Source: Terriglobia bacterium
Lineage (GTDB): Bacteria; Acidobacteriota; Terriglobia; Versatilivoradales; Versatilivoraceae
Length of the DNA stretch: 64,000 bases
Direction of reading: 5' to 3'
NCBI GenBank assembly: GCA_022452285.1
Contig: JAKUNG010000002.1
Coordinates: forward strand, 83,716 to 147,715
Shown: piece by piece, positions 1,521-59,738 of the stretch
Layout of the letters: the number at the start of each line of letters is the position of its first letter
Position numbering within the stretch: position 1 is the stretch's first letter
Notes under the pieces: model-generated
Databases searched by the model: none
What the model was told of the DNA's origin: nothing
Seen by the model: the letters and a program-made list of their open reading frames with translations, nothing else
Position numbers and translations under genes: made by a program

Positions 1521-3333
1521 AAAACTACCTAGATTGTTGGCTAAAGCCTGTAGTATTTTCATCTCAACTACAATGTTCTGGGGACTCTCTCTTTCTAGCC
1601 GGGCTGATTCAAATAATGGAGATCGTTTCCCCACCTCGACTCCTCCTCTCAATGACATTCAAGTCGAAAACCGCGTACCTGTCCCTATGAGAGATGGCAC
1701 CATTCTTTACGCAGATATCTTTCGTCCTGTCAACGAAGGTCGTTATCCTGTTCTCGTCTGTCGAACACCCTATGGCGTGGAAGGAAGAGCTGAACCTGCA
1801 TTCTTTTCCAAACGAGGCTATGTTTTTCTAATTCAGGACGTGAGAGGACGTTATGAATCTGAAGGTAGATGGGATCCCTTTCGGAACGAGGCAAATGATG
1901 GTTATGATACGGTGGAATGGGCAGCTAAACAACCATGGTCTAATGGTAAGATCGGGATGCAGGGTAAATCCTATCTAGGCCTCGTCCAATGGCAAGCGGC
2001 TAAGACTCGACCACCGCATCTAATAACCATTTTCCCGGATGTAGCATCCGTTAGCCCCTACCATAGCTTTGTTACCCTCAATGGAGCATGGAGACTTTCA
2101 TTCAATTTTGGATGGGGAGCGGTTCGACAAGAATCGCGTATCGGGCAAAATACGGTATTACATAAAAAAGGCGGAGGCTCACAAAACCTTAGTTACAACC
2201 AAGTCATCTGGCATCTACCCTTGCTTGACATGCAACGACTTTTAGGACGGCAAGCTCAATTTTATACCGAATGGATTCAACATCCCGACTATGATGATTA
2301 TTGGAAAGTACTTGATGTGACTAAACATTTTTCCAAGATCACAATCCCCGTTCATACTCTTGGTGGGTGGTTTGATATTTTTACTCAGGGAACTATTGAC
2401 GGCTATCTAGGAATGAGCCAGACCGGTGGATCTTTAAAGGCACGACAAGGCTCTCAAATCACTATTGGTCCCTGGGGACATGGCCCTACCCGATCCTTTG
2501 GAGATTTAGCTTTTGGTGACACCGCTATGGTGGACGTATTAGCAATTCAACTTCAATGGTTTAATTACTGGCTTAAAGATCTACCCGGACTTAACACCGA
2601 ACTTGCTGCCAGAATTTTCGTGATGGGAAAAAACAAATGGAGATTCGAAAAAAAATACCCTCTAGCCAATACTGAGTATAGAAAACTTTATCTCCATAGT
2701 AAGGGAGAAGCTAACAGTGCAAGAGGCAACGGAAAACTCAGCTGGAATATCCCTAACTCAAACTCAAAACCTGACCATTATCGCTATGACCCCAATAACC
2801 CTGTGAAAAGTCTCGGGGGCAATAACTGTTGTGGAGTGCCAACACGAGCTGGCCCTGTGGACCAGCAATCCATTGAACAGCGCCACGACGTCCTTGTCTA
2901 TACTTCTGATTTCCTACAAGAATCTCTAGAGGTAACAGGGCCCATAAAACTAAAGCTCTATGCCTCTTCTAGTTCAACAGAGACGGATTTTGTGGCAAAA
3001 CTAATAGACGTCTACCCTGATGGAACGGCTATTAATGTAGCTGAAGGACTTCTGCGCACCCGGTACAGAAAGAGCCTTGATCAACCTAAAAAGCTCAATC
3101 CTGGAAAAATCTATGAACTGATGATTGATTTAGTAGATACCAGCAACCTATTTCTCAAAGGTCACCGTATCCGGTTAGATGTAACTAGTAGCCACTTCCC
3201 CCAATTTAATCGTAACCTGAATACAGGGGAGGCTTTTGGTTTACACCAAAAGCCTCAAGTAGCTAATCAGACTATTTACCATTCTAATACTTATCCGTCA
3301 CATTTTATTTTGCCTATTATTCCTTCTGACTAA
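1495..3333 (+). CDS. CocE/NonD family (peptidase S15) alpha/beta hydrolase, secreted
   Basis: About 612 residues with the order expected of the X-Pro dipeptidyl-peptidase S15/CocE family. A hydrophobic N-terminal segment (about 15-35) is likely a signal peptide. An alpha/beta-hydrolase domain follows, with nucleophile Ser159 in GKSYLG, Asp294 in GGWFD and His329 in GPWGHG. The C-terminal jelly-roll PepX_C domain spans about 460-605. Family members hydrolyse acyl esters or amides; cocaine esterase and glutaryl-7-ACA acylase are known examples. The start is uncertain: TTG 1495 overlaps the previous gene, TTG 1510 is preceded by a weak GAAG, and ATG 1573 would cut the signal peptide. The stop overlaps the convergent RidA gene by four bases. 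Likely a periplasmic or exported esterase/amidase; substrate unknown. Confidence 0.88.
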   Translation: MKTNRLNTRKLPRLLAKACSIFISTTMFWGLSLSSRADSNNGDRFPTSTPPLNDIQVENRVPVPMRDGTILYADIFRPVNEGRYPVLVCRTPYGVEGRAEPAFFSKRGYVFLIQDVRGRYESEGRWDPFRNEANDGYDTVEWAAKQPWSNGKIGMQGKSYLGLVQWQAAKTRPPHLITIFPDVASVSPYHSFVTLNGAWRLSFNFGWGAVRQESRIGQNTVLHKKGGGSQNLSYNQVIWHLPLLDMQRLLGRQAQFYTEWIQHPDYDDYWKVLDVTKHFSKITIPVHTLGGWFDIFTQGTIDGYLGMSQTGGSLKARQGSQITIGPWGHGPTRSFGDLAFGDTAMVDVLAIQLQWFNYWLKDLPGLNTELAARIFVMGKNKWRFEKKYPLANTEYRKLYLHSKGEANSARGNGKLSWNIPNSNSKPDHYRYDPNNPVKSLGGNNCCGVPTRAGPVDQQSIEQRHDVLVYTSDFLQESLEVTGPIKLKLYASSSSTETDFVAKLIDVYPDGTAINVAEGLLRTRYRKSLDQPKKLNPGKIYELMIDLVDTSNLFLKGHRIRLDVTSSHFPQFNRNLNTGEAFGLHQKPQVANQTIYHSNTYPSHFILPIIPSD

Positions 3334-4508
3334 TCCCCCTTCTTAACTGCCACAAATTGCATTCCAATCTTGTTGGTTCCAGGAAGTTCAGCTACTCCCA
3401 GTGTAGCTCTTGTCGGAGGACTTTCAGGGAAATAACTTCTATATGCATTGTTCATCTCTGCATAATCAGCCATATCGCTTAGGTATACACGGGCTTCAAC
3501 AACGTTTTTAAGACTAAAACCCCCAGCTTCTAGAATTTGTTTAACTCGACTCAAACAATCATTTACACGGTCTGCAACTGTTTCCTTCCCACTAAATACT
3601 CCTGCAATATAGATAGTATTGCCTACCTTAAGTCCTCGACTATAAGCTCCACTTGGTGGCATGCCTTCTGGAAGGACCGGTTCTTTCTGTTTCCGGCTGG
3701 CAATCATTGTAATCTCTACAGGAGAATTTAAAGGAATATTTGAGACGAGGATTGGAACTCGAGCTGGCTTAGGATCAGGAACCTTCGACACATAAACTTC
3801 ACTCATTGGTCCAAAGAATTCACCACTTGACATGAAAACTTCTGTAGAAACTACATTAGAAAAATCCATATTTCCTGCTTTTAAGATGCTTTCAATATTT
3901 GTTAGTGTCTGACTTACTTGAACCTTAATATCTCCTTCCACCAATTTTCCTCCTGACGTGCCCGCCTGTCCGGAAACAAATAAGTAGTCCCCACACAGAA
4001 TGCCTGGAGTAAATGGTAATTTCCATTCATCGCGCTTAATTTCGAGAGGATAAATAGCTTTTTTTTCTCCCCGCATTGCTACCATTGCAATTTCGATACT
4101 TGCCCCAATTGCTAACTTATCAATACCAACAGTTGTTCGAGTAGGCAAATCCTTGGTTTTAAAAAATGATCGGTACACCTGGCTCATTACACCTATTTTG
4201 CTAAGATCTGTCATCCACACATGAGTAGCTACTACATCAGAAAATCCATATCCTTTAGCTTTTAACTCTCGGCCTAGATTTTCCATTGTCACTTTAGTTT
4301 CTGCTTCAATGCCAGAAGCCAACTCTTTAGTTGTTGGATTCAAACCTACTTGACCTGAAAGATAAAGTAAGTCACCAACTTCTATCGACTGACTAAAAGG
4401 TAAAGACGGTGGAGGACTCTCAACTTCAGTGGACTGTTGACAAGCCATACTCAGGAGAATACAAAATAAAGTAAAGCTTCTTAGAATCATTACTTTCTTT
4501 TTAATCAT
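3330..4508 (-). CDS. Three-domain RidA/YjgF-family putative lipoprotein
   Basis: 392 residues containing three consecutive RidA (YjgF/YER057c/UK114) domains at roughly 25-140, 155-270 and 278-390. Each carries the family signature of an SGQ/AGV strand and a late conserved PTR(T/A)T(V/L)G or equivalent block (domain 1 PTRTTVG, domain 3 PTRATLG; domain 2 has PARVPIL). RidA proteins hydrolyse reactive enamine/imine intermediates released by PLP enzymes. The N-terminus MIKKKVMILRSF...LLSMAC looks like a lipoprotein signal, so this copy would sit outside the cytoplasm, unlike classical RidA. I chose ATG 4508 over ATG 4523 because GAGGAG lies 7 bases before it and would be coding with the longer start. 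It is divergent from the amidohydrolase-aminotransferase fusion, which fits a role with imine chemistry, but that is inference. Domain 2 looks degenerate. Confidence 0.85.
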   Translation of the reverse strand: MIKKKVMILRSFTLFCILLSMACQQSTEVESPPPSLPFSQSIEVGDLLYLSGQVGLNPTTKELASGIEAETKVTMENLGRELKAKGYGFSDVVATHVWMTDLSKIGVMSQVYRSFFKTKDLPTRTTVGIDKLAIGASIEIAMVAMRGEKKAIYPLEIKRDEWKLPFTPGILCGDYLFVSGQAGTSGGKLVEGDIKVQVSQTLTNIESILKAGNMDFSNVVSTEVFMSSGEFFGPMSEVYVSKVPDPKPARVPILVSNIPLNSPVEITMIASRKQKEPVLPEGMPPSGAYSRGLKVGNTIYIAGVFSGKETVADRVNDCLSRVKQILEAGGFSLKNVVEARVYLSDMADYAEMNNAYRSYFPESPPTRATLGVAELPGTNKIGMQFVAVKKGD

Positions 4509-4549
4509 GATGGAACTCCTCATATAATTTTCTTGCTACATTCTGGGAA

Positions 4550-4644: not shown

Positions 4645-4802
4645 TCTCTGTAATCAGAACTTATAATGCACAGGTGTTCAACTTTAATTCCCTAGTGGTT
4701 GGACATCTTACTAAACCAATAATAGAAAAGTCTGTTGGAATTATTATAGAAAGTTTAACTTTTTTCAATCTTGTCGTTGCATAATCCTTGGAGAACCTCC
4801 CT

Positions 4803-7163
4803 ATGAAAGATGGAATCACAGAAAAACTCCACCCAGCTAACAACCTTACTGATTTTACCGTGACTAATGATGATGTCGATTTCTTTAATCGTCATCTACG
4901 GAATTTTGTTCCGACAGAATCTTTTGACTCTCATGCCCATTTCTATGAAAACTCACATCTAGGAAACACACTTAATGATAATTACCTAAAATATCGTCCA
5001 AATCCAGGCGGATGGGCTGCCTACCAAAAACACCTCAAAATGTTGATGGGTGACCGCGCTCCACAAGGAGGATTGTTTTTTGCAATGCCTCGAAAAGATG
5101 TAAATATGAGGGCAGCTAATGAATTTGTAGCAGAACAAGTGTCACAATCTGACAAACTTAGAGGTTTGTTATTGATTCATCCAAAAGATGACCCAGACCA
5201 TGTTAATCAGCAAATTACTGATCAAGGTTTTGTTGGAATAAAAGTTTACCTAACTTATGCTGATCGTGATGACCCATACAATGCTGAGATTGAAGAATTT
5301 CTACCGGACTGGGCTTGGGAAATTGCTGACAAAAATAGACTAGTAATCATGCTACACATGGTTAAACCCAGAGCAATAGCTGACACCCTTAATCAACAAT
5401 ACATCCGTGAACATTGCCTGCGTTATCCTAATGCAAATCTTATTCTTGCCCACTGTGCTCGGAGCTTTAACTCTGGGCATATCCTCGAAGGACTTGATTC
5501 TCTGCGTGGACTTGAAAATATCTTCTTTGACAACTCAGCCATTTGTGAGCCTCAACCTGTTGAAGAGATTCTTAAAATATTTGGACCATCAAGACTTTTA
5601 TTTGGTACAGATTTTCCCGTTTCTATGCTTCGGGGTCGAGCAGTTAGCACTGCTGATGGATTTCTTTGGCTTGGTCAGGGTAACGTGGACTGGTCAACAG
5701 CAGCTTTTGGAAATAATACCGTGTTAGGACTAGAGAGTCTATTGGCACTTAAACATGGGTGTCAGCGAATGAACCTGATTGACACAGATATTGAACGGAT
5801 TTTTTTTCAAAATGCTTATCAGTTATTTAAAATAGAAGAACAAGAAGTTGGACGTGGCCAAAATCTGTATATTGAAGCAAAGAAAATCATTCCTGGCGGA
5901 ACTCAACTGCTGAGTAAACGACCTGAGTTATGGGCTCCTGATCAGTGGCCTGTGTATTACAAAGAAGCCCGAGGATGCTCAATCATAGATATGGATGGTC
6001 AGCATTATACGGATTTTAGCGTTAATGGAATTGGCTCAACTATGTTGGGGTATGCAGATCCAGATGTAACTGCAGCTGTAATTAGACGAGTCCAACACGG
6101 TTCTATGTGCTCACTCAATGTGCCTGAGGAAATGGAAGTAGCTCGACTTCTTTTACAGTTGCATCCTTGGGCTGATAATGCTCGTTTCACACGGGCTGGA
6201 GGAGAATCATTAACAGTGGCCGTTCGAATTGCACGCGCAGCAACTCAAAGACAAAACGTCGCAATCTGTGGTTACCATGGATGGCATGATTGGTATATTG
6301 CTACAAATATAGGAACAGAACATAATCAAAAACTAAACGAACATCTTTTAAAAGGAATTGACCCAGCTGGGGTACCCTCCAGACTTGGTGGCACCACTTT
6401 CCCTTTTCGCTACGGAGAACTCCAAGAACTAGAACAAATATTTGATTCTGCTCCAGAACCTTTAGCTGCTATTGTTATGGAACCTACTAGAAGCGAAGAT
6501 CCTGCTCCAGACTTTCTTCCATCCATTCGAAAATTGTGCAATGAACATGGTGTTAAGTTAATCTTTGACGAGGTATCTATTGGGTGGAAACTAACAGTAG
6601 GTGGTGCACACCTCAAATATGGAGTTAATCCTGACATAGCTGTATTTGCAAAATCAACGGCTAATGGACACCCTATGGGTGCCATCATAGGAAATGAAGA
6701 AACTATGCAAGCCGCTCAAGAATCTTTCATCTCTAGTTCATTTTGGACTGAAGGAGTAGGTCCCGCTGCTGCAGTTGCTACTATTAAGAAAATGATGCGG
6801 GTTGATGTAGTTGGGCACGTCGATCGCATTGGACAATCAATGAAAGATGTTTGGCTGAAACTAGGTACCCAATATAAACTTCCTCTAACAGTGGATGGAC
6901 ACAATGCATCTTGTGGTTTTTCTCTCAATCATCCAAAAGTTAGGGCCCTGGAAACATTATTTACCGTTAGAATGCTTAAAGCTGGGTTCCTTGCAACCCC
7001 CCACATAACTTTAACTCTTGCTCATGAACCCTACCATGTTGAGGCATATGCTAAAGCAGCAGAGCCTATCTTTTATGAACTAGCTACAGCCATTGAAAAA
7101 GATGACGTCGAATCCCGCATTGGTGGTCCGATAAGACATTCAGGTTTTCAACGACTAACCTAG
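4803..7163 (+). CDS. Amidohydrolase fused to class III (GSA-type) aminotransferase
   Basis: One uninterrupted 786-residue frame encodes two complete enzymes. Residues 1-345 form an amidohydrolase_2-type TIM barrel, with HxH metal ligands H44 and H46 in FDSHAHFYEN, an ILAHCARSF strand and D270 in LLFGTDFPV. Residues about 355-785 form a PLP-dependent class III aminotransferase closest in style to glutamate-1-semialdehyde aminomutase. Evidence is IPGGTQLLSKRPE near the start, GYHGWHDWY, the LIFDEV Asp and Lys617 in FAKSTANGHPMGA as Schiff-base candidate. The start is ATG 4803, with GGAG at 4790-4793; TTG 4788 has no ribosome site. The M81 gene follows after 30 bases, so they form an operon. A plausible job is hydrolysis of a cyclic or amide substrate whose product is transaminated or isomerised by the second domain. 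Substrate unknown. Confidence 0.88.
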   Translation: MKDGITEKLHPANNLTDFTVTNDDVDFFNRHLRNFVPTESFDSHAHFYENSHLGNTLNDNYLKYRPNPGGWAAYQKHLKMLMGDRAPQGGLFFAMPRKDVNMRAANEFVAEQVSQSDKLRGLLLIHPKDDPDHVNQQITDQGFVGIKVYLTYADRDDPYNAEIEEFLPDWAWEIADKNRLVIMLHMVKPRAIADTLNQQYIREHCLRYPNANLILAHCARSFNSGHILEGLDSLRGLENIFFDNSAICEPQPVEEILKIFGPSRLLFGTDFPVSMLRGRAVSTADGFLWLGQGNVDWSTAAFGNNTVLGLESLLALKHGCQRMNLIDTDIERIFFQNAYQLFKIEEQEVGRGQNLYIEAKKIIPGGTQLLSKRPELWAPDQWPVYYKEARGCSIIDMDGQHYTDFSVNGIGSTMLGYADPDVTAAVIRRVQHGSMCSLNVPEEMEVARLLLQLHPWADNARFTRAGGESLTVAVRIARAATQRQNVAICGYHGWHDWYIATNIGTEHNQKLNEHLLKGIDPAGVPSRLGGTTFPFRYGELQELEQIFDSAPEPLAAIVMEPTRSEDPAPDFLPSIRKLCNEHGVKLIFDEVSIGWKLTVGGAHLKYGVNPDIAVFAKSTANGHPMGAIIGNEETMQAAQESFISSSFWTEGVGPAAAVATIKKMMRVDVVGHVDRIGQSMKDVWLKLGTQYKLPLTVDGHNASCGFSLNHPKVRALETLFTVRMLKAGFLATPHITLTLAHEPYHVEAYAKAAEPIFYELATAIEKDDVESRIGGPIRHSGFQRLT

Positions 7164-7193
7164 TTTAGCTTCTAAATCAGAGGAGATATGAGA

Positions 7194-8690
7194 ATGAAAC
7201 GGATTGGGATAGCTGGGTTTCTTCATGAATCCAATAGCTTTTCTCCAATACCCACCCCCTACCAACATTTTAAAGAAACTAGTTATACAACTGGAAAAAG
7301 CCTGTTGGATCGTTGGGAAGGTACCCACCACCAACTCGGTGGATTTTTGGAAGGAGCTAAGCAGTTTGGATTTAAACCTGTGCCTATTTTTGCTACTTAT
7401 GGTATCCCCTCAGCTCCAATGTCAAAGGAATCCTTCGAACAACTATCAAGTGATATGATCGGCTTAATTCAAACGGCCCTTCCCCTAGATGGGTTACTCC
7501 TAGCTTTACATGGTGCCGCAGTATCAGAACCTTTTCCAGATGCAGATGGCGAGCTCTTAGCTCGCATTCGGCGTTTAGTCGGTCCGAGCCTCCCAATTGT
7601 CTCGGTAATTGATCTCCACGCTAATGTCTCTCCTGAAATGATCAATGCAACCCATGCCCTTATTTCGTACCGTTCTAATCCCCATCTAGATCAACGTCAA
7701 TGTGGAATTGAAGGTAGCAGCATAATAATGAGAATTCTTAATCAAGAGATTAGTCCTATTCAAGCTCTTGAATGTCCTCCTTTACTTATAAATATTACAA
7801 AGCAGTACACAAATGAAGCTCCCTCTAAACAACTTTACTCTGACCTTGAAACAGTACTGAATTGGCCAGGGATTTTGTCTGCCAGCACCGCCATGGGTTT
7901 CTATTATTCTGATGTTAAGGATATGGGTGCCTCTTTCTGGGCAATTTCAGATTCTAATCCTTCTCTGGCAAAAAAAGCTGCACAATGGCTAGCTCAAAGA
8001 GCCTGGGACAGACGACAACAATTTCTCGGAGATCTTCCCAATGCTAAACAGGCTGTTCATATGACCCAGTCAAAAATTGATGGCCCCATAGTTCTTATGG
8101 ACGTTGGTGATAATGTAGGAGGGGGTGGCCCAGGTGACTCAACATTTCTTTTGTCTGAAATCGTTTGCCAGAAAACCTCAAATGCATTAGTAGTTCTTTT
8201 TGACCCAGAGGCTGTACTAACTTGCGTAGAAAAGGGTGTTCGCCAGTCCATTGATCTACTGGTTGGTGGAAAAACAGATAACCACCACGGTCAGCCTGTA
8301 AGAATAAAAGGAAAAATACGGTTAATTTCGGACGGAAGATCCTTGGACACCCAACCTAGACATGGCGGTCATGGATTGTTTGATCAGGGTTTAACTGCAG
8401 TAATACAAACCCTTGAAGGACATTTAGTTGTACTAACTACTCTCCGCAGTGCCCCTCGGAGTCTCGAACAGCTTTACGCTTTAGCTATTGTTCCTGAAAA
8501 TATGCACCTCATAGTTGCAAAAGGGGTTGTTGCTCCAAGAGCTGCTTATGAAGCCATTGCTTCTCAAACTATAATCGTAGATACCCCTGGTGCTACAACA
8601 GCTAATCCAGCAAATTTTAAGTTTCAACACTGCCGCCGCTCCCTTTACCCCCTTGTCAAAGACGTAAAATACTCAGCATCGACTTTATAA
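7194..8690 (+). CDS. M81 family metallopeptidase (MlrC/microcystinase C-like)
   Basis: 498 residues with the DUF1485 plus MlrC C-terminal domain order. Marks include the N-terminal GFLHESNSFSP, DLHANVS near residue 140 (metal-binding Asp/His) and DVGDNVGGGGPGDS near 303. The archetype, Sphingomonas MlrC, is a zinc enzyme that opens the linear tetrapeptide product of microcystin. Most homologues act on other small amide-containing substrates that remain unknown. The start is ATG 7194, 8 bases after AGAGGAG (7179-7185); ATG 7188 is too close to that site. It lies 30 bases downstream of the amidohydrolase-aminotransferase fusion and probably shares its transcript. No signal peptide, so cytoplasmic. 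Confidence 0.88.
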   Translation: MKRIGIAGFLHESNSFSPIPTPYQHFKETSYTTGKSLLDRWEGTHHQLGGFLEGAKQFGFKPVPIFATYGIPSAPMSKESFEQLSSDMIGLIQTALPLDGLLLALHGAAVSEPFPDADGELLARIRRLVGPSLPIVSVIDLHANVSPEMINATHALISYRSNPHLDQRQCGIEGSSIIMRILNQEISPIQALECPPLLINITKQYTNEAPSKQLYSDLETVLNWPGILSASTAMGFYYSDVKDMGASFWAISDSNPSLAKKAAQWLAQRAWDRRQQFLGDLPNAKQAVHMTQSKIDGPIVLMDVGDNVGGGGPGDSTFLLSEIVCQKTSNALVVLFDPEAVLTCVEKGVRQSIDLLVGGKTDNHHGQPVRIKGKIRLISDGRSLDTQPRHGGHGLFDQGLTAVIQTLEGHLVVLTTLRSAPRSLEQLYALAIVPENMHLIVAKGVVAPRAAYEAIASQTIIVDTPGATTANPANFKFQHCRRSLYPLVKDVKYSASTL

Positions 8691-9164: not shown

Positions 9165-10694
9165 TTAATTTGCAGAATTCCTTGTCCAAACTGTCAAGTC
9201 AGTTAAATCTCGGACAGCTCTTCTCCCCGAGAGGCAACTGATACCTATTCCTAACAAAAATAAAAAACTATTAGCTAAAACAATAATCCAGAACTTGTCT
9301 GGAAGAATATGTGCTATACCTGGGGATATTTGCCTTCCAATTTCACTATCAAAAAATAACCAAAGAAAAACACCTAATACCGTCCATATAGTTGCAATAG
9401 AAGCAGATTTACTATCAACCCTCTTAGTTAAAAATCCTAACAGAAACAGACCTAGTAATCCTCCACTCATAACAGAAATCAAAGTCGCTTGAAGATCTTG
9501 TAACGTTTCGGTTCTTGTAAAGTGAATGACCAGAGCTAATACAATCATGACAACTCCAAAAACTCCCGATATCCACCGTCCAAAGGTTACATAATGTTTT
9601 TCTTTCTTGCTAGGAGCAATCAATCTACGATAAAAATCAGTCGTTACTGCTGATGCTGACGCATTAATACTAGAATCTAGAGTAGACATAGCGGCAGCTA
9701 ATAATCCAGACATAACAAATCCAGCAACACCAGCAGGCACATGACTTAAAATAAAAAATGGATAAACCTGTTCGGGCAACATTGTCTCCAACTCTGGCCT
9801 GGGGGAATGCTTGTAAAGCACATAAAGAGCAGTACCAATAAAGCTGAAGAAAACCCATACCATTACTGTAGTCACAGCACTGAGAACAATACCCTTTTTC
9901 GCCTCTTTAGTTGTCTTTATTGCAGCATATCTTTGAATCGTCATTTGATTTACACACATGTACTGGGTAAAGTGAAACAGGTGCATTAAAACCATAATCC
10001 AAACCGTTTTTTCTGAAAAATTTAGTGCTGTACTTCCGATCGAGAGCTTGCCATCCGCATAGGCCTCTCCAATTATCTGTTCGAAGCCCCCTGGCACCAT
10101 ATTAAAAATAATAGGAAGGCATATTAGTCCCCCCAAAATTAGAGCAAAGCCTTGAATCATGTCGGTCCAAATGACAGCTTCTAACCCTCCAGCAATAGTA
10201 TAAGAAGCAACCAACACCCCAAAAATTACAATAATCCAAGGCAAAGAAAATCCTGTCATTGTCTCAATGGGAAGACAAACAGCATAAAGAATCACTCCGA
10301 GACGAAACATCTGAAACAACACGAAGGCTGCCCCTGCATACAAACGTGCCCAGGCACCAAAACGTTTTTCTAGATATTCATATGCAGATTGAAAATTTCC
10401 TTTTCGAAAAAGGGGCATAAAAAGAAACAGCCCCGGAATAGATGCTAATAAATAAGTAAACAAGGGAGGCACATAACGCCAGTTTTCGGCATAAGTAAAA
10501 CCTGGAGTTGCCAGAAAAGTCATTGAACTCACAATCGTTGCCATCATTGAGAGCCCAACAACCCAACCTGGCATATTTCGACCAGCCAAAAAGTAGGCAT
10601 CTGAAGATTTACTTTTCCTAGCGCAGTACACACCAATACAAACCATTACAACAAGGTTAAGTCCGATTACTATCAGGTCAGCTAATCTCCACAT
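9165..10694 (-). CDS. Sodium:solute symporter (SSS family)
   Basis: 509 residues with about 13 predicted membrane segments. The SSS core features are present: an N-terminal helix followed by SSDAYFLAGRNMPGWVVGLSMMATIVSSMTF split into TM1 and TM2, YTIAGGLEAVIWTD in the middle, and SGLLAAAMSTLDSSINASAS, which supplies the conserved serines near the Na2 site. Family members import sugars, proline, pantothenate, sialic acid and other organic solutes with sodium. ATG 10694 is preceded by AGGGAGAG at good spacing. It is the last gene of the minus-strand set with the Rieske protein and two amidohydrolases, so it may import their substrate, although 147 bases separate it from the Rieske gene. Substrate not predictable. 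Confidence 0.93.
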   Translation of the reverse strand: MWRLADLIVIGLNLVVMVCIGVYCARKSKSSDAYFLAGRNMPGWVVGLSMMATIVSSMTFLATPGFTYAENWRYVPPLFTYLLASIPGLFLFMPLFRKGNFQSAYEYLEKRFGAWARLYAGAAFVLFQMFRLGVILYAVCLPIETMTGFSLPWIIVIFGVLVASYTIAGGLEAVIWTDMIQGFALILGGLICLPIIFNMVPGGFEQIIGEAYADGKLSIGSTALNFSEKTVWIMVLMHLFHFTQYMCVNQMTIQRYAAIKTTKEAKKGIVLSAVTTVMVWVFFSFIGTALYVLYKHSPRPELETMLPEQVYPFFILSHVPAGVAGFVMSGLLAAAMSTLDSSINASASAVTTDFYRRLIAPSKKEKHYVTFGRWISGVFGVVMIVLALVIHFTRTETLQDLQATLISVMSGGLLGLFLLGFLTKRVDSKSASIATIWTVLGVFLWLFFDSEIGRQISPGIAHILPDKFWIIVLANSFLFLLGIGISCLSGRRAVRDLTDLTVWTRNSAN

Positions 10695-10841: not shown

Positions 10842-11267
10842 TTAGGGAATCTCAACAAATATATATTGATCATTAATAGTTACAGGATAAGTTTCAGCTT
10901 TGTAAGGCAACTCTACAGAAGAAGAATCTCTGTTTGGACCTTCTACGGTTACTTTGTATGTCCTGACTCGGGTATGATCTGGTTCAATACAGGATTGGCC
11001 ATTTTTAAGATCAAATTCCCAACCATGCCAAGGACATCTAATAATCTCACCCCTTCGCGTAAAGTGATATTCGCCCGGAACATTCGCTTCTACGAATCCA
11101 GAAACCTGTCCTAGGCATAATGGACCGCTTTGATGAGGGCAATGATTCAAAATGGCAAAAAACTCACCCTCCACATTAAAGATTCCAATAGATCTGCCCT
11201 TAATTTGGGCAATCTTTCTTCCTCCACGAGGGATTTCTCCAACAGCAGCCACTGCATGCTTAGCCAT
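10842..11267 (-). CDS. Rieske [2Fe-2S] ferredoxin-like protein
   Basis: 141 residues forming a single Rieske domain. The cluster ligands are C43 and H45 in NHCPH, and C78 and H81 in RCPWHGWEFD. It lacks a signal peptide and a catalytic mononuclear-iron domain, so it would act as a small soluble electron carrier. Usual partners are ring-hydroxylating oxygenases or nitrite-reductase-like enzymes, but none is encoded beside it here. The start is ATG 11267, preceded by GAGAGAGG rather far upstream; the TTG just before it is less likely. The gene sits between the symporter and two amidohydrolases on the same strand. Relatives of those amidohydrolases include decarboxylases in aromatic catabolism, so an aromatic or heterocyclic ring pathway is possible. 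Confidence 0.9.
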   Translation of the reverse strand: MAKHAVAAVGEIPRGGRKIAQIKGRSIGIFNVEGEFFAILNHCPHQSGPLCLGQVSGFVEANVPGEYHFTRRGEIIRCPWHGWEFDLKNGQSCIEPDHTRVRTYKVTVEGPNRDSSSVELPYKAETYPVTINDQYIFVEIP

Positions 11268-11373
11268 CAAATAGTTATAACCTCTCTCAGCTTCCTTTAA
11301 GAATTATTTTTAATAAAAAATTAACAAAACTAATCTTTTTCAGATCTGGAATTCACCTATGGCTACGAAATCT

Positions 11374-12501
11374 TTAATTCAAGTCATATAGAGTTCGAGC
11401 ATTTTCAGACATAATTTTTTTTCTTACCTCATCATCAAGTCCAGCCGGAAGTGCTGCCTCAGGAGAGTCAAAATCCCAGTGTGGGTAATCTGTTGCAAAC
11501 AGTAATCGATCTGAAGCATCCAGATGTTCTAGCAATTGCTTAAAATAGACCGGTTTAGAAGGCTCTTCCATCGGTTGAGTACTCATCCAGATATGTTTAC
11601 GGATATAGGATGAGGGGGTCGATTTAAGTGCAGGCACTTCTTGGGGAAGCTTTTTCCAGCAATTATCTAATCGCCACATTAAGGAAGGCATCCATCCAAA
11701 ACCACCTTCAATTAGAACCACTTTCAGTAAAGGAAACTTTTCAAAGATCCCTTCAAAAACTAAACTGATAACCTGAGATTGAAAGGCTTGGGGCATTCCA
11801 CCATGATCCTCAATATAGTAAGATGGCCACCCTGCTCCTGTTAGGGGTCCTCCGCCTGCTCCGCCAAAATGGATCCCCACCGGCAGATTATGCTTAATCG
11901 CTGCCTCATAAATTCCATGATATTTTCGTCGCCCTAACGGTTCACGGGTTCGAACTAAGAATAAAACTTGAACAAAACCGGGATGACTTCCTACTCTATC
12001 TATTTCTTCAGCTGCCAGTTCTGCATCCTCATAGGGAATTACAAGTGATGCACGAAGTCTCGGTTCAGGATCCAGCCATTCAGCAATCTGCCAGTCATTG
12101 ATCGCTCTGGCTAGGGCTGCCCCATATTCAAGGTTTAACTGTCCACCAACACCAAATAGACAATTAAGAACTCCAAACTCAATATCATACAGATCGAGCA
12201 ACTGATATTTCATAAAGTCTAGATCCGATCCAGCAGGCAGCCCAGAGGGTGGCCAAGAATCATGCCGAGCTGCATTCATTAGGGCTCTGGGGTAAAACGA
12301 GCCTAAATGGCCTCTAAGTCCAAACATTTGGTGATGTTCACGCCATCTTTGGGGAAGATATTTGTAAAGGGTTTCATTTGAAGGAATGAAGTTGTGGATG
12401 TCACAATCAATAATTTTCTGGTTCTGAGTTTTAAGTTTATTCTTATTTTTCTTGAATAAAGTTGACGATTTCATTTTTTGTTTTGATAAGCTTAAGCGCA
12501 A
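11374..12501 (-). CDS. Amidohydrolase_2 family metal-dependent hydrolase/decarboxylase (copy A)
   Basis: About 375 residues of the amidohydrolase_2 family, whose members include ACMSD and 5-carboxyvanillate-type decarboxylases. Seen are the N-terminal metal motif IIDCDIHN, LPVGIHFGGAGGG at a middle strand, VVLIEGGFGWMP, and the C-terminal LLFATDYPHWDFDSP, whose Asp is the usual late metal ligand. The N-terminus is lysine-rich with no obvious signal, so cytoplasmic. The start is uncertain: TTG 12501 gives the longest form, while ATG 12474 (MKSSTLFKKN) is the more standard start; neither has a clear ribosome site. The next gene upstream is a clear paralogue, so this is a tandem duplication. Confidence 0.87.
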   Translation of the reverse strand: MRLSLSKQKMKSSTLFKKNKNKLKTQNQKIIDCDIHNFIPSNETLYKYLPQRWREHHQMFGLRGHLGSFYPRALMNAARHDSWPPSGLPAGSDLDFMKYQLLDLYDIEFGVLNCLFGVGGQLNLEYGAALARAINDWQIAEWLDPEPRLRASLVIPYEDAELAAEEIDRVGSHPGFVQVLFLVRTREPLGRRKYHGIYEAAIKHNLPVGIHFGGAGGGPLTGAGWPSYYIEDHGGMPQAFQSQVISLVFEGIFEKFPLLKVVLIEGGFGWMPSLMWRLDNCWKKLPQEVPALKSTPSSYIRKHIWMSTQPMEEPSKPVYFKQLLEHLDASDRLLFATDYPHWDFDSPEAALPAGLDDEVRKKIMSENARTLYDLN

Positions 12502-12551
12502 AATAATTAAAAATATATCTGCTTTACTCTTACTATCCTAACTCAAAAATC

Positions 12552-13670
12552 TTAGAAACGATAAAATGATTGAGCATTTTTCAATAGTATTTTTGTAGTT
12601 ACTTCCCTAGAAAGACCAAGTGGGAAAGCCTCTTCAATACGATCAAACTGCCAATGTGGATAATCAGTTGAAAACATTAACATTTCTTCAGAATCTAATT
12701 GCCCAATTACTTCCGAAAATTGCTTGATATTTCCAGGCCCGTCAATTGGCTGAAGCGTCAAACGGATGTGCTTACGGATATACTCAGATGGAGGCTTTTT
12801 TACCCAAGGAATATTTCGCCGCAGACCTTTCCATTCTTTATCTAATCTCCACATCAAAGGAGGCATCCAAGTAAAACCACCCTCTATGAGAGAAACTTTT
12901 AGGGTTGGAAATCGATCAAACGCTCCTTCCACAATTAAACTCATTACTTGAGATTGAAACACTTGGGACATGGAAGCAAATTCTTCAGCATAAGTTGAAA
13001 GCCATCCACTTGGCGTTGACGGATGTCCAGGTGAACCACCAAATTGTATGCCCAAAACCAGACCGTGTCTAACTACTGCTTCATAAATAGGATCGTATTT
13101 TCGACTTCCATAGGGAATTAATGAACGAACAGGCATAATTACCTGAACAAATCTAGAATCATGCCCCCACCGATCTATTTCCTTCGCTGCCAATATCGGA
13201 TTTTGACTAGGAATGACAATAGAACCCCTTAAACGGGTATCGCGTGATAACCAGGTATCAACTTGCCACTGATTAACAGCTGAAGAAAGTGTTAAAGCCA
13301 ATTGTTCATCATGGACAGCCTGGACCCTATAAGCGCAGTTTAAAATACCAAACTCTATTTTTAGTTTGTCAAGTAACCCTTCCCTTAACTCCCCTATGTC
13401 AAGATTCCCCTTAACCGAACCAGTCTTCCGGAAACTCAAAGCCACTGAAGTTGGGGCCCCTTCTGGATAATCATCTGAGTCTGGCCCACGGAAAGCTGAT
13501 TCCTCGATATAGGACCGCCAATGATCGGAAAGATATGGTTTTAAAACCTCAATATTTGGGACTTCATTGTGAATATCACAATCAATGACATTTTGATTAA
13601 TCCAAAACAAATCATTTAAGTCATTATCCGATAAGGGTGCCAAGAATATTCCTTTCTTCTGACCTTTCAT
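12552..13670 (-). CDS. Amidohydrolase_2 family metal-dependent hydrolase/decarboxylase (copy B)
   Basis: 372 residues, aligned along its whole length with the neighbouring amidohydrolase. Shared blocks include VIDCDIHN, QVFQSQVMSLI, EGGFTWMPPLMWRLD, SEYIRKHI and FSTDYPHWQFD. Substitutions around the active site (for example LGIQFGGSPG where copy A has VGIHFGGAGG, changing a His to Gln) suggest the two copies have different substrates or form a hetero-oligomer. It starts at ATG 13670 without a convincing ribosome site and is the first gene of the minus-strand group. The 210-base gap to the divergent Tat DHDPS-family gene should hold both promoters. Reaction not determinable. Confidence 0.87.
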   Translation of the reverse strand: MKGQKKGIFLAPLSDNDLNDLFWINQNVIDCDIHNEVPNIEVLKPYLSDHWRSYIEESAFRGPDSDDYPEGAPTSVALSFRKTGSVKGNLDIGELREGLLDKLKIEFGILNCAYRVQAVHDEQLALTLSSAVNQWQVDTWLSRDTRLRGSIVIPSQNPILAAKEIDRWGHDSRFVQVIMPVRSLIPYGSRKYDPIYEAVVRHGLVLGIQFGGSPGHPSTPSGWLSTYAEEFASMSQVFQSQVMSLIVEGAFDRFPTLKVSLIEGGFTWMPPLMWRLDKEWKGLRRNIPWVKKPPSEYIRKHIRLTLQPIDGPGNIKQFSEVIGQLDSEEMLMFSTDYPHWQFDRIEEAFPLGLSREVTTKILLKNAQSFYRF

Positions 13671-13883
13671 TATGTGGTTGAAGAGTTGTCATAATTATCA
13701 AGTTAATTTGTAAATAGAATACCGCAGAACCCTACAACTTCTCAATTCTAGTATATAAATAATCCTAAAAAGAAGTCAGTTACAACTTAATTATGATATA
13801 ACAAGAAATTATACAAAAATTAGATTCTGTTTATTCCTTGAATTTTTCATAGTTACACCAGTTTGGTGCCCGGAGAGCCACAA

Positions 13884-14915
13884 ATGAAAAAACAACATAG
13901 AAGGCTATTCATGAAAAATCTTACCCTCGCTACCGGCACTTTAATGTCGACTTCTTTTGGCTGCATTAAAACTACTCATAGTAAAGGATCAATGCAAAAT
14001 CGCAGGGACCTAATCCACGCACTTGAGGGAGTCCATAATTTTATGGTAACTATTTTTCACCCAGATTTTGAACTAGATTCCGAAGGACTCCGACAGAATA
14101 TATCTGACCACGCTCAAGGCTTTCACAAAAAGATGTCAATTGTCGTTGCAGGTGGCTTGGGTGAACTATACAGCCTTGATATTGAAGAGCATCGTTCTCT
14201 TGTAACAGCTGCAGTAGCCGGAGCTGATGGTAAAATGCCTGTAATAGCAGGTATTGGTGGTGGCTATCGTAATGCTATGCGAATGGCTAAAAATGCTGAA
14301 CGTGCAGGTGCTGATGCTGTTTTACTCTTTCCTCCTGGTTCTCGTTGGGGTCAAAGGGACGGAACATACCGTTGCTGTCTAGACGTGGCTAAATCTGTGG
14401 ATATCGGTGTTCTAATTTATCCTCGCTCCGAAGATTATTGGCCTGAACTTTTAAAACAGTTAGCTAGAATTGAAAATATAATTGGTTTTAAAGATCCTAG
14501 TGGAGATACCAAAGTAGGTTTAAGCTTAGGAAGTATCATTCCTGAAAATTTCCTTTGGATTGCAGAAGGAGAAAACCACGCTGTTAAATCTCTTCCTGTT
14601 GGAGGTAGAGCCTATACAACGGCTGTAGCGACCTTTGCCCCAAAAGCTAGCTATGATTTTTGGTCAGCTGGCATAGCAGGTAATAACAAAAAGATGACTC
14701 AAGTTTTAACTGATAAAATTGAGCCTATTGTCAAACTTCGTGGAGTCAAATCTGGTTATGGCATCAGTGGAATTAAAGTAGGCCTCAAATCGTTAGGCAG
14801 AGCTGGTGGCCCTGTACGTCCTCCAGGAACTCAAGTAGATCCCAAAGACCGAGCTGCTATTGCCAAGATTGCACATTTGCATTCCGAGGTGCGAGGAGAT
14901 TCTTCTAGCGATTGA
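13884..14915 (+). CDS. Tat-exported DHDPS/NAL-family lyase, putative lipoprotein
   Basis: 343 residues of the dihydrodipicolinate synthase/N-acetylneuraminate lyase superfamily, class I aldolases that act through a lysine Schiff base. Lys203 in IIGFKDPSGD is the Schiff-base lysine and Tyr179 in LIYPR matches the catalytic tyrosine. The N-terminus HRRLFMKN...TSFGC is a twin-arginine lipoprotein signal with Cys27 as lipidation site, so this aldolase would act in the periplasm. The start is ATG 13884 with GGAG 8 bases upstream. It heads a plus-strand group with an exported amidohydrolase and an exported creatininase-family protein. Cleavage or synthesis of a 2-oxo acid is expected; the actual substrate is unknown. 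Confidence 0.87.
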   Translation: MKKQHRRLFMKNLTLATGTLMSTSFGCIKTTHSKGSMQNRRDLIHALEGVHNFMVTIFHPDFELDSEGLRQNISDHAQGFHKKMSIVVAGGLGELYSLDIEEHRSLVTAAVAGADGKMPVIAGIGGGYRNAMRMAKNAERAGADAVLLFPPGSRWGQRDGTYRCCLDVAKSVDIGVLIYPRSEDYWPELLKQLARIENIIGFKDPSGDTKVGLSLGSIIPENFLWIAEGENHAVKSLPVGGRAYTTAVATFAPKASYDFWSAGIAGNNKKMTQVLTDKIEPIVKLRGVKSGYGISGIKVGLKSLGRAGGPVRPPGTQVDPKDRAAIAKIAHLHSEVRGDSSSD

Positions 14916-14982
14916 TTAATTAATAATTTGATTTTAGACAAAATAATTTAAAAACAAATTATCCACACCAAGGGAGGTGCTT

Positions 14983-15963
14983 GTGAAAGACCTAAACCGT
15001 CGAGAATGGATTATCTCAGCTAGTGCAATGGGATTATTCGGCGCATGCAATTCACCCAAAGAAGACAAACCTTTGGTTGAACCTACTATCGTTGATGCCC
15101 ATGTACATGTATGGAGTTCTGATTTTAGACGTTATCCTCTAGCCCCAGGATTCGAACCTACAGATCTTTGGATTCCTAGTTATTCAGTCGAACGACTAAT
15201 TAGAGAGGGCAAACCCGCTGGTATCGGCAAAACTAATTTGATTCAAATGACATGGTACGGTTTGGATCACTCATATATTTTGGACATTATTGCTAAAGAC
15301 CCTAAACATTTCGTAGGTACAGGGATTGTTCCTGCAGTTACCGATGTTTCTCTTCCAAGTCCTGATAAAACGATGATCGCTCTATCTAAAAAAGGAATAT
15401 ATGCCTTCAGGGTTCGTGGTGGAACGACTCGTCCTCCACTCGGTGGGGGACCCCAATGGATGGACCATCCTGGATTTGACATGATGTTTAAGGCAGCTGC
15501 TGAACACAACCTGGCACTGAGTTTTTTGATGAGTATCAATGACTTACCTGAACTTGCCCGAATGTGTGAGCACTTTCCTGACAGTCCTGTGATTATTGAT
15601 CATCTTGCTGGCACCCATGAAGCCTCGACTGAAGAAGAAATCCAGTTGCTTTTAAAAATGGCACAACATAAGAAAGTTATGATTAAGGTAGGAGCTTTTT
15701 ATGGAAGAGGCAGGACACCTCCATACTTAAGTTTGTTGCCCTTAATAAAACGAATAGTCGATGCATTTGGCCCAGAGAGATGCATGTGGGAAAGTGATGC
15801 TCCCTTTCCTCCAGACAGGCCATCTCGACACCCATTACCTGAGGTGCCTCACGGCATTGAACCTGCTGTCGCACTTATCCGTGACCATGCCGACTTTCTG
15901 AGCCAATCAGACAAGCACCAGATTTTAACTAAGACAGCGGAAGATTTTTTCTTTAACCGATAA
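14983..15963 (+). CDS. Tat-exported amidohydrolase_2 lipoprotein (copy 1)
   Basis: 326 residues. The Tat signal NRREWIISASAMGLFGAC has lipobox Cys22. The barrel shows the HxH motif IVDAHVHVW, the block LIQMTWYGLDHSYILD, VIIDHLAG, and a final CMWESDAPFP with the late metal-ligand Asp. This arrangement resembles lactonase-like members of the family (PDC/LigI-type and fuconolactonase-type). GTG 14983 is the start, placed 5 bases after AGGGAGG (14971-14977). A close paralogue lies at 53921-54892, with identical stretches such as DVSLPSPDKTMIALS. It sits 67 bases after the DHDPS-family gene and 70 before the creatininase gene, each with its own ribosome site, consistent with one transcript. Confidence 0.87.
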   Translation: MKDLNRREWIISASAMGLFGACNSPKEDKPLVEPTIVDAHVHVWSSDFRRYPLAPGFEPTDLWIPSYSVERLIREGKPAGIGKTNLIQMTWYGLDHSYILDIIAKDPKHFVGTGIVPAVTDVSLPSPDKTMIALSKKGIYAFRVRGGTTRPPLGGGPQWMDHPGFDMMFKAAAEHNLALSFLMSINDLPELARMCEHFPDSPVIIDHLAGTHEASTEEEIQLLLKMAQHKKVMIKVGAFYGRGRTPPYLSLLPLIKRIVDAFGPERCMWESDAPFPPDRPSRHPLPEVPHGIEPAVALIRDHADFLSQSDKHQILTKTAEDFFFNR

Positions 15964-23391: not shown

Positions 23392-26300
23392 GTGTTCTAT
23401 TTCAACCGAAAACCATATCATCTCAAATATTTTTTCCAAAAATGGGCCTCTCAATTTTTTCTGGCATTCTTAATATTAACAACCCATAGCATTAAACCAA
23501 ATCTTTTCTTTTCAATTGGTCAACCGTTCCATCAAGCACAAGCCAAGCCTAAATCAAAATCTGAATTTTCTGAATTCGATGAAAAACTATTTCCAATCTT
23601 TCAGAGACATTGTCTGCGATGTCATAGCTCCAGTATTCAAATGGGTGGTCTAAACCTAAGCAGTAGAAAATTCCTTTTTGCAGGTAGTGACTCAGGTAGT
23701 GTTATTTCTCCTGGACAACCTGAAAACAGCAGACTATTTCAGGTTGTCAGGGCGAGACAAATGCCTCCAGACCAAAAAACAGTCGTTTCTTCTTCAGAGC
23801 TTAGTATTATTCAAAATTGGATCAAGGGTGCTGATCTTAAAGGCCTGTCAGCTAGTCACCAAAAGGTCAATCAGCAACACATAATTCCTCTAATGTTTCT
23901 TCACTGTACAGCCTGCCATGGCCAACGTCTTCAAGAAGGGAGATTAGACCTTCGAACAAAAGTCTCCATGTTGAAAGGAGGCCGATCAGGCCCAGCTATT
24001 ATTCCAGGAGATCCAGAAAATAGCCTTATCATTCAAAAAATTCATAACAAGGAAATGCCCCCACCAGGCCGGGAAGTCGAAGCTAGTGTTCGACCAATGT
24101 CTTCTCGGGAACTAACCCTCCTCAAAAAATGGATTGCTGCAGGTTTACCTGAAATAACAAATGAGCTCGACACCAATGAAGCTGATTTATCTTTGGTCAA
24201 TCAAGATCAAAGGTTTTGGTCTTTCCAAGCACCTGACTCTGAATTAAAACCACCCCTAGTAGAACTTGGCAATCCTACTCTGACAAGTAACCCAATTGAT
24301 GCGTTTATCTCAGCTAAATTAGAAAAGAAAAACTTGTTTCCTTCACCTCGAGCAGACAAACAAACATTAATACGCCGGGCTAGCTTTGATCTCACTGGCC
24401 TACCTCCCAGCCCTCAAGATGTTAAATCTTTTCTTGCTGACACTAACCCTAAAGCATACGAATCTTTAATCAAACGACTGCTCAGTTCCCCTCGTTATGG
24501 TGAACGCTGGGGTCGTTATTGGTTAGATCTAGTTGGTTATCAAGATCATCCATATGCGTACCGCTACAGAGATTATGTCATTCGTTCTTTTAATAAGAAT
24601 AAGCCGTACAATCGCTTTCTGCTAGAACAAATCGCAGGTGATGAATTAGTGGATCTAAAGAACCTTCCAAGTATTAACCAAGAAACGATTGACAATTTAA
24701 TTGCTACAGGTTTTCTTCGAATGGTCCCCGATGAAACAGGCAATCGGCTAACAAATTTTGTAGAACATCGTCTTCGAGTAATTAACGATCAAATTCAGAT
24801 TTTTAGTTCCAGCATACTAGGATTAACCATTGGTTGTGCTCGATGTCATGACCACAAATTTGAACCTATTTCCCAAAGAGATTATTATCGGTTAGCTGCA
24901 ATTTTTAAAGGAGCTTTTGATGAACATGACTGGATGCCAGCTCAGTTTGTCAACGATCCTGATCGACCAATGCTACATACAGAAGCACGGATCCTTCCTT
25001 ATGTAAACCCTCTAAAAAATGCTTTTCTTCTGAACAAAGAGCGTCTATCTCGCGAGAAACATAATGAAAAAATCAATCAAAACATTGCTCGCATTGAGGC
25101 TGCTCTCAAAGAAAAGGGCAAACCAATAAGAGAAAAGATAATCAACTTACGATTATCAGCTTTGCCGAAAGTCTTACATGAAGATTTAAAAACCATGTTG
25201 GACACAAAACCTGAGAATCGTACCGACGAACAGAAACTTTTAGCCAAAAACTTTGAACAGGGATTAATAATTAGATTTAGAGATCTAGAGGATTTTGATC
25301 CTAACTATAAAACACTTTCATATAAAACTAGGAAAAAAGTTAGACTTCTCCAAGCCAAGCTAATTCCTGAGTCCAAAATTAGAGCTTTATGGGACCGTGG
25401 AACACCCTCTCCAACCTATATCTTGCGTCGAGGAGATCCAATGAGTCCAGGTCGATGGGTCAATCCAGGAGTCCCAACTGTTTTAATAAAAAATCCTAAA
25501 TCGTTTAATGTACGACGTCCCTGGCCAGATGCTAAGAAAACAGGAAGACGTTTAGCTCTGGCACATTGGTTAACCCGGTCAGACCACCCTTTAACATCCA
25601 GGGTCATGGTAAATCGAATATGGAAATATCATTTTGGGCATGGAATCGTTAAAAGTCTTGGCAATTTTGGCCGAAGTGGAATTAAGCCTTCTCACCCTGA
25701 ACTCCTTGATTGGCTCTCTATAAAATTCATTCAAAGTGGATGGGACATTAAGAGCCTGCATTACTTAATGATGACTTCCAATACTTACAAACAAGCTTCA
25801 AAGGTTTCGCCAGATATGGAGAGAATGGACCCAGAAAATATTTTATTCTCCAGAATGCCTCTCCGTCGAATGGATGCTGAAGAATTAAGAGATACTCTCT
25901 TTCTGATTTCAGGTCGCCTTAATGAAAAACCCTATGGTCCTCCCGACATAGTTTTAGAAAGGAAAGATGGATTAGCAACTGCTATTTTTAGCAAAAAAGG
26001 ATGGCGCCGTAGTATCTATGTTACTCAAGATGCGAATAATAATAATGGCAGGAAAAATCCTACTATCCTAGATAACTTTGATTTCCCTTCAATGACGCCT
26101 AATTGCCTTGAGAGAGTAGAATCAACAGTAGTCCCCCAGGCACTGCATCTATTAAACAACTCGACAGTACTCGAACTTTCAGGCTTAATAGCAAATCAAA
26201 TCATCGTAGAATCAGGTAATAATCCTTCAAATCAGGTACACCAGGCTTACTGGAAGATTCTTAACCGTCCTCCTATTGCAACAGAAAACTCTATAGGGGT

Positions 26301-26424
26301 AGAAGCATTGCTCAAGTTACAACAAACTGCTAGTCAAAACACACAAGAGAAAAATGTTAAAAAGGCTCTTGCTAAATTTTGTCATACCCTTTTAAATTCA
26401 GCAGGATTTCTCTACATTGATTAG
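23392..26424 (+). CDS. Planctomycete-type cytochrome protein, 2x PSCyt1 + PSCyt2 + PSD1 (pair 1)
   Basis: 1010 residues with an N-terminal membrane/signal segment. Two tandem PSCyt1 haem domains follow (CLRCH at 74-78 and CTACH at 172-176, each followed by a GG..G..I.PG.P..S.L...MPP pattern). Then come PSCyt2/DUF1549 with a CARCH motif near 482-486 and C-terminal PSD1/DUF1553 ending in HTLLNSAGFLYID. The third CxxCH may also bind haem. These proteins always pair with DUF1501 proteins; their biochemical role is not established, though they are thought to be periplasmic electron-transfer or polysaccharide-related oxidoreductases. The start is GTG 23392 with a weak GAAGA site. Followed by the DUF1501 gene after 80 bases. 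Confidence 0.92.
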   Translation: MFYFNRKPYHLKYFFQKWASQFFLAFLILTTHSIKPNLFFSIGQPFHQAQAKPKSKSEFSEFDEKLFPIFQRHCLRCHSSSIQMGGLNLSSRKFLFAGSDSGSVISPGQPENSRLFQVVRARQMPPDQKTVVSSSELSIIQNWIKGADLKGLSASHQKVNQQHIIPLMFLHCTACHGQRLQEGRLDLRTKVSMLKGGRSGPAIIPGDPENSLIIQKIHNKEMPPPGREVEASVRPMSSRELTLLKKWIAAGLPEITNELDTNEADLSLVNQDQRFWSFQAPDSELKPPLVELGNPTLTSNPIDAFISAKLEKKNLFPSPRADKQTLIRRASFDLTGLPPSPQDVKSFLADTNPKAYESLIKRLLSSPRYGERWGRYWLDLVGYQDHPYAYRYRDYVIRSFNKNKPYNRFLLEQIAGDELVDLKNLPSINQETIDNLIATGFLRMVPDETGNRLTNFVEHRLRVINDQIQIFSSSILGLTIGCARCHDHKFEPISQRDYYRLAAIFKGAFDEHDWMPAQFVNDPDRPMLHTEARILPYVNPLKNAFLLNKERLSREKHNEKINQNIARIEAALKEKGKPIREKIINLRLSALPKVLHEDLKTMLDTKPENRTDEQKLLAKNFEQGLIIRFRDLEDFDPNYKTLSYKTRKKVRLLQAKLIPESKIRALWDRGTPSPTYILRRGDPMSPGRWVNPGVPTVLIKNPKSFNVRRPWPDAKKTGRRLALAHWLTRSDHPLTSRVMVNRIWKYHFGHGIVKSLGNFGRSGIKPSHPELLDWLSIKFIQSGWDIKSLHYLMMTSNTYKQASKVSPDMERMDPENILFSRMPLRRMDAEELRDTLFLISGRLNEKPYGPPDIVLERKDGLATAIFSKKGWRRSIYVTQDANNNNGRKNPTILDNFDFPSMTPNCLERVESTVVPQALHLLNNSTVLELSGLIANQIIVESGNNPSNQVHQAYWKILNRPPIATENSIGVEALLKLQQTASQNTQEKNVKKALAKFCHTLLNSAGFLYID

Positions 26425-26504
26425 TATTTTTGGAAAAGATATTATCTTCATTTTATACTTAATTAAATTTTTCGGCTAGAAAGGGCTAAATTAGGAGAAC
26501 GACT

Positions 26505-27998: not shown

Positions 27999-28144
27999 TA
28001 ATACAGCTCCATTTTCTAGTATTCGATTCAAGTCAACAATAAAATTTACAACTTTTAGATTTCTTAATTCTTCTAAAATTTGATCTAATGCAACTCTATT
28101 TAATGAAATGATTTAGTTTAAACTGCCATCAGGAAGGCATCTAA

Positions 28145-29668: not shown

Positions 29669-29677
29669 AAATTATTT

Positions 29678-32668: not shown

Positions 32669-32783
32669 GATTAATGCTTCTCCTTATCTCAACTCTTTAA
32701 ATGTGTATCAATAGGAATCTACACTAATAAACAGGTTCAAGACCTTTTTAAAAAGAAACCCACTTAATCGTTCAGTATTATCC

Positions 32784-34241: not shown

Positions 34242-34248
34242 TAAGATT

Positions 34249-36930: not shown

Positions 36931-37057
36931 TTGAAAAATCCTACGATTCACTTTCCCCGTTAAGTCAAACCCTTTTTGTTAGGGCTTCCACTGTTTCAAC
37001 TGCAAACCAACTTTTTTCAATCTGTAAGTATTTACTCTATCATCTATTTAAAAAAAA

Positions 37058-54892: not shown

Positions 54893-54959
54893 GACAATCC
54901 TCCTCAATCATTTAAAAAGGCTTCAATCTACCATTTACTTCCTAATAACAGGAACCACA

Positions 54960-59685: not shown

Positions 59686-59738
59686 AAAATCCTTTCTTAC
59701 TTAGTCAAATCACAGCCTGAAAGTTTTGGCTTATTCCC

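Follow-up and report, generated by a model that had tools for sequence, protein, structure and literature searches.

A widespread two-domain protein joining an amidohydrolase-superfamily barrel to a class III aminotransferase related to enzymes of nonulosonic-acid gene clusters

What brings a metal-dependent barrel of the amidohydrolase superfamily and a PLP-dependent aminotransferase into one polypeptide, and on what kind of compound might the two act? The question is posed by a gene in a 64,000-nucleotide stretch of DNA (the window) from an acidobacterial MAG of sponge-symbiont type, near Candidatus Versatilivorator, with an estimated contamination of 7%. The literature searched contained no paper describing the host genus. 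Translation revealed 786 codons open without a stop at window positions 4803-7163 (+), preceded by GGAG at 4790-4793, nine bases 5′ of the ATG at 4803. Pfam identified both modules well above its gathering cut-offs: Amidohydro_2 (PF04909) at residues 104-282 (60.7 against 26.4 bits) and Aminotran_3 (PF00202) at residues 381-730 (152.8 against 30.5 bits). The gene is laid out as follows.

4803..7163, + strand: fusion gene, amidohydrolase-superfamily domain plus class III PLP aminotransferase, 786 aa (stop-free translation, Pfam, homologues)
4860..5828, + strand: N-terminal amidohydrolase (TIM-barrel) domain, residues ~20-342 (Pfam, AlphaFold, Foldseek)
4932..4940, + strand: HxH metal-ligand motif, H44/H46
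5610..5612, + strand: D270, metal/catalytic Asp, conserved also across unfused relatives (alignment A2)
5829..5852, + strand: short interdomain linker, residues ~343-350 (alignment; the C domain starts at residue ~351 in homologues)
5853..7160, + strand: C-terminal class III aminotransferase domain, residues ~351-786 (Pfam Aminotran_3; nearest solved fold GSAM 5i92)
6651..6653, + strand: K617, PLP lysine, common to unfused relatives

A sequence-only reading of this DNA had proposed two intact catalytic modules in one frame and had named HxH, D270 and K617 as key residues; both proposals held. Across 36 aligned full-length fusions with 38-72% identity to the window protein, the barrel residues H44, H46, K147, H185, H217 and D270 and the PLP-site residues D589 and K617 are invariant (36/36), and the structure model of the whole fusion reached a pTM of 0.85; channelling between the metal and PLP sites, which the earlier reading considered likely, would be a putative property. 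Judged by its sequence, the protein is a genuine bifunctional enzyme with both active sites intact. That one domain is merely structural or regulatory, leaving a single-function protein, is very improbable in the face of two catalytic residue sets preserved down to 38% identity.

To establish how far this architecture extends, we surveyed related and distant genomes. Seven other host-family genomes carry full-length homologues at 68-72% identity, and an eighth copy is interrupted where its contigs end. Searching GTDB genomes yielded some thirty further full-length fusions (38-70% identity) outside the host family, distributed among Planctomycetota, Verrucomicrobiota, Armatimonadota, Hydrogenedentota, Bacteroidota, Spirochaetota, Lentisphaerota and Bacillota, which brings the total to about nine phyla with Acidobacteriota included. 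The full fusion was absent from 49 other genomes sampled across the host class, and no match among sequenced plasmids covered 80% of the fusion query. Contamination of the host MAG could have favored the spurious joining of two genes by misassembly or frameshift, the refutation that the earlier reading itself had foreseen as a missed stop or frameshift; the chance of this is practically nil, and we rejected it, given more than 35 independent full-length homologues, among them those of the Bacteroidota isolates Chitinophaga alhagiae and Membranihabitans marinus. The same reading had allowed that the fusion might prove to be a common annotated family. Widespread it is, but we found neither a curated model spanning the full chain nor, in the literature searched, a paper describing the fusion. 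This two-domain family is thus real, widespread and apparently unstudied; its novelty lies in the architecture, both component domains being already known.

Phylogenetic analysis of the N domain placed all fused copies in a single clade (SH-aLRT 100), separate from unfused relatives. This topology fits a single fusion, the most likely origin of the family, of a COG2159-like barrel to a class III aminotransferase. The C-domain tree divides the fused copies into two groups that include some unfused aminotransferases, with moderate deep support; these unfused members may represent losses or separate copies. No amidohydrolase was detected beside the unfused in-clade aminotransferases of four loci (L062 and L064; L077 and L079, the latter two by ORF inspection).

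Unfused members of the same two families also occur together elsewhere. Their genes lie 15 bases apart in locus L036, overlap by 8 bases in L070, are divergent neighbors in L092, and share one cluster, 7.7 kb apart, in L117; in L058 and L114, a COG3618-type (lactonase-type) amidohydrolase is found near or beside an unfused aminotransferase. The L036 pair was considered as a fission product of the fusion and rejected, its N gene belonging to a different N clade. The link between the two families has therefore recurred, in fused form and as separate juxtapositions, and this recurrence offers the best evidence that the two domains very probably share a substrate. Of the coupled two-activity pathway suggested earlier, the link between the activities is accordingly supported by the fusion and by the L036, L070 and L092 pairs, but its aminomutase variant is not, as the domain scores given below indicate.

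The barrel was modeled by AlphaFold with a pLDDT of 95. Its best Foldseek matches were LigJ hydratase, gamma-resorcylate decarboxylase, LigY, 2-pyrone-4,6-dicarboxylate lactonase and COG3618 proteins, although identity to solved relatives was mostly 12-18% and TM-scores were ~0.5-0.6. The named enzymes, all of the COG2159/Amidohydro_2 type, share the TIM-barrel and the HxH..H..H..D pattern with the fusion, whereas the fusion barrel has conserved motifs of its own (GxKVYH, LHxV and SAICE). Amidohydro_2 relatives of known function act mostly on C-C, C-O or lactone bonds and rarely on amides. Because the nearest solved relatives are hydratases, decarboxylases and lactonases and amides are rare among the substrates, the hydrolysis step assumed by the earlier reading is not established; by analogy, lactone opening, hydration and decarboxylation would be equally possible. 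The host genome additionally encodes two tandem unfused barrel relatives with 35-39% identity (L118:8847-10865), a pair that is conserved in another genome (G009, locus L122).

The nearest solved structures of the C-terminal domain are glutamate-1-semialdehyde aminomutases (HemL; PDB 5i92 and 4e77), with which it has the class III PLP fold and the catalytic lysine in common. In contrast to HemL, it carries GGTQLLSKRPE in place of the GGVNSPxRAF-type motif, along with additional CGYHGWHDWY and SSxWTE motifs. It scored 170.2 bits against a cut-off of 527.3 for TIGR00713 (HemL) and 213.3 against 486 bits for PRK06209, and on these scores, far under the cut-offs, and the missing motif, a HemL (glutamate-1-semialdehyde 2,1-aminomutase) function was rejected. 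Separate class III genes are present in the host genome, one of them (L005) with the HemL-type GGVNSPARAF motif.

The LLSKRPE/CGYHGWHDWY/SSxWTE signature instead marks a subfamily that groups apart from HemL-like enzymes in the tree. Its unfused members, 45-57% identical to the C domain, reside mostly inside biosynthesis clusters for nonulosonic acids (NulO) of the pseudaminic-acid type. In L071 and L085, the aminotransferase adjoins NeuB, a CTP_transf_3 cytidylyltransferase and a PseG-like protein; on a Pseudosulfitobacter plasmid, it is fused to CTP_transf_3 and lies between annotated pseB, pseC, pseG and pseI. Such a second fusion of the aminotransferase subfamily, with CTP_transf_3 in NulO clusters, was observed at L130:7287-9320 and L081:7281-9398. 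The Legionella sg6 O-antigen cluster follows the order PseG, aminotransferase (Lp6_764), cytidylyltransferase (PMC3694923), and we place Lp6_764 in the subfamily by this published cluster rather than by alignment. No biochemical role of the NulO-cluster class III aminotransferase was found in the papers searched.

Comparison of the fused and NulO-cluster aminotransferases identified ~70 alignment positions that are invariant across the two groups; none of the positions conserved in each (85% or more per group) differs between them. This shared invariance, with no group-specific differences, makes it plausible that both catalyze one type of reaction, with related substrates. Their settings differ: the NulO-cluster enzymes are found in a biosynthetic context, alone or fused to a cytidylyltransferase, and not to an amidohydrolase as the window protein is. 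The window fusion lies outside any NulO biosynthesis cluster, among neighbors of catabolic type, which are listed here.

3330..4523, - strand: predicted lipoprotein with three RidA stretches, divergent (Pfam Ribonuc_L-PSP; conserved in the host family)
7188..8690, + strand: M81/MlrC-family gene, 24 bp downstream of the fusion (Pfam DUF1485 and MlrC_C)
9165..10694, - strand: sodium:solute symporter (SSF), nearest solved relative SiaT (5nv9); conserved in the host family
10842..13670, - strand: Rieske protein and two Amidohydro_2 proteins (Pfam; conserved neighbors in the host family)
13863..15963, + strand: DHDPS-family protein and COG3618-type Amidohydro_2 protein (Pfam; conserved neighbors in the host family)

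Three other host-family genomes carry the whole block, from RidA through the fusion to the COG3618-type gene, at 54-81% identity, and more of them retain part of it. The M81 gene follows the fusion on the same strand as had been noted, but at 24 rather than 30 bases. It is the next gene in the window and in six host-family loci (62-64% identity), whereas none of the inspected loci of other phyla has M81 adjoining the fusion, the closest approach being one distant M81 ~6 kb away in L055. Of the pair whose conservation had been proposed as a check, the fusion thus extends to about nine phyla, but its M81 neighbor is confined to the host family, and M81 was rejected as a cross-phylum partner.

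The RidA gene is indeed divergent next door, but the quenching role suggested for it is weakened. By eye, its homologues carry a canonical lipobox LAAC and the window protein LSMAC, so that the triple-domain product is a predicted exported lipoprotein, whereas no export signal is evident by eye in the fusion or M81 proteins. With a lipoprotein-type signal on RidA and none on the fusion, quenching of a cytoplasmic fusion enzyme's product is doubtful. Tat/lipoprotein-like N-termini were likewise seen by eye on the DHDPS-family and COG3618-type proteins at 13863-15963 and 53921-54907, which suggests that these may form an exported enzyme set.

The transporter offers a hint of the solute. SiaT was the best solved relative of the window SSF (E 2e-68; next, 2e-45). 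SiaT contacts its substrate through Thr58, Ser60, Thr63, Gln82 and Arg135, of which Ser60, Thr63 and Arg135 bind the carboxylate (PMC5931594). The window SSF retains exactly this carboxylate-binding trio (3/5 substrate residues) but differs from SiaT in Thr58 → Ile and Gln82 → Leu, and in the SSF of L047, a Trp aligns at Arg135. The conserved trio suggests that the solute of the window SSF would bear a carboxylate but need not be a sialic acid; because of the Thr58 and Gln82 changes in the window protein and the Trp in L047, Neu5Ac itself is unlikely as the solute of either.

Fused copies usually sit in catabolic-looking clusters that combine uptake and breakdown genes, although neighbor sets vary among phyla. 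An HpaI aldolase accompanies fused or closely related unfused copies in eight loci (L047, L052, L053, L065, L113, L058, L066 and L087). Other recurrent neighbors are SDR, Gfo/Idh, aldo-keto reductase (AKR), SSF or MFS transporters and BNR_2 (sialidase-like) proteins; HpaI, SDR, AKR and Gfo/Idh together adjoin the fusion in L047, L052 and L053, and some of them do so in other loci. The host cluster has no BNR gene beside the fusion, and M81 in its place. We do not accept BNR_2 neighbors as proof of sialic-acid use: these genes are common (5-35 per genome), and although chance would place only ~0.1 of them in an 18-kb locus, polysaccharide genes cluster anyway. Neighboring DHDPS proteins were also considered as NanA, for which NCBIfam gives no support, none of them scoring as such.

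Integrating these lines of evidence, we tentatively propose, at somewhat less than even confidence, that the fusion is a bifunctional enzyme catabolizing an imported acidic, amino-sugar-like compound as its putative substrate. A neighboring SSF or MFS transporter would import an acidic, amino-bearing, sugar-like compound, on which the fusion enzyme would act in the cytoplasm. The PLP domain would move the amino group, the metal domain would convert the same intermediate in an adjacent step (hydrolytic, lactonase-like or a decarboxylation), and HpaI- or DHDPS-type aldolases would then cleave the chain. Weighing against this proposal are the altered SiaT residues, the variation of neighbor sets among phyla, the commonness of BNR_2 genes and their absence beside the host fusion, the lack of a NanA-scoring DHDPS neighbor, and the in-clade aminotransferases that have no amidohydrolase detected at their side. 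A more specific form, in which the fusion would be the core enzyme for the breakdown of bacterial sialic acids of the pseudaminic/legionaminic type (di-amino NulO), with a biosynthetic-route aminotransferase recruited and a new amidohydrolase-superfamily activity added, appears distinctly improbable. None of the papers searched described how bacterial diamino nonulosonic acids are degraded.

Two other pathways would account for the same neighbors in different ways. The fusion could serve amide or peptide nitrogen catabolism, in which, together with M81/MlrC and creatininase- or hydantoinase-like neighbors, nitrogen is stripped from an N-acyl or cyclic amide, the barrel opening the amide or ring and the aminotransferase taking the freed amine. 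The M81 gene directly after the fusion in six host-family loci besides the window speaks for this, as do the combination of M81, class III aminotransferase, RidA and creatininase on a Halobaculum plasmid, the pairing of M81 and a class III aminotransferase on one from Natrialba, and the hydantoinase A and deaminase-like ORF of the paralogous cluster L117. Yet M81 adjoins no fusion in the loci inspected outside the host family, the other M81 neighborhoods inspected lack such an aminotransferase (they hold ABC transporters, D-aminoacylase, D-serine ammonia-lyase or M20 peptidases), the chemistry of the barrel's relatives, in part family knowledge, is mostly not that of amides, and the C domain resembles those of NulO clusters; we consider this pathway rather unlikely.

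Slightly less credit still goes to non-phosphorylative sugar oxidation, in which an AKR or SDR would make a lactone, the barrel would act as lactonase, HpaI would cut the 2-keto-3-deoxy acid, and the aminotransferase would only recycle a side intermediate. A barrel-type lactonase step occurs in the L-fuconate pathway. The redox and aldolase genes around the fusion in L047, L052, L053 and partly elsewhere suit this scheme, and so do the COG3618 lactonase-type enzymes of L058 and L114 and the appearance of 2-pyrone-4,6-dicarboxylate lactonase and COG3618 among the fold matches; however, it leaves unexplained why an invariant aminotransferase is joined to a lactonase, and we judge it unlikely. 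Catabolism of an acidic amino-sugar-like compound is the reading that we prefer.

Both domains come from large, often loosely annotated families, and the chain would usually be labeled a plain class III aminotransferase or amidohydrolase. The fusion names two activities with a very probably common substrate, and the subfamily ties that substrate to nonulosonic-acid-like chemistry. A poorly annotated family of about nine phyla, with cultured Chitinophaga and Membranihabitans strains, makes the substrate class testable in the laboratory.

Several minor observations accompany this analysis. The paralogous cluster in a host-family genome (G002; L117:172-13863) contains an unfused aminotransferase, an N-like amidohydrolase and another Amidohydro_2 protein, with an SSF 56% identical to that of the window. 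On the Halobaculum plasmid, class III aminotransferase, M81, RidA and creatininase lie together (L127:5583-8924) as an echo of the window. Within the window, translations inspected by eye revealed three adjacent pairs at 23392-36951 resembling large cytochrome/DUF1549-type and DUF1501-type proteins; such pairs are typical of Planctomycetes, and the host here is acidobacterial. At 58267-60857, an aldehyde dehydrogenase-family protein stands beside a weak AMP-binding protein, an arrangement that recalls LuxC/LuxE-like pairs.
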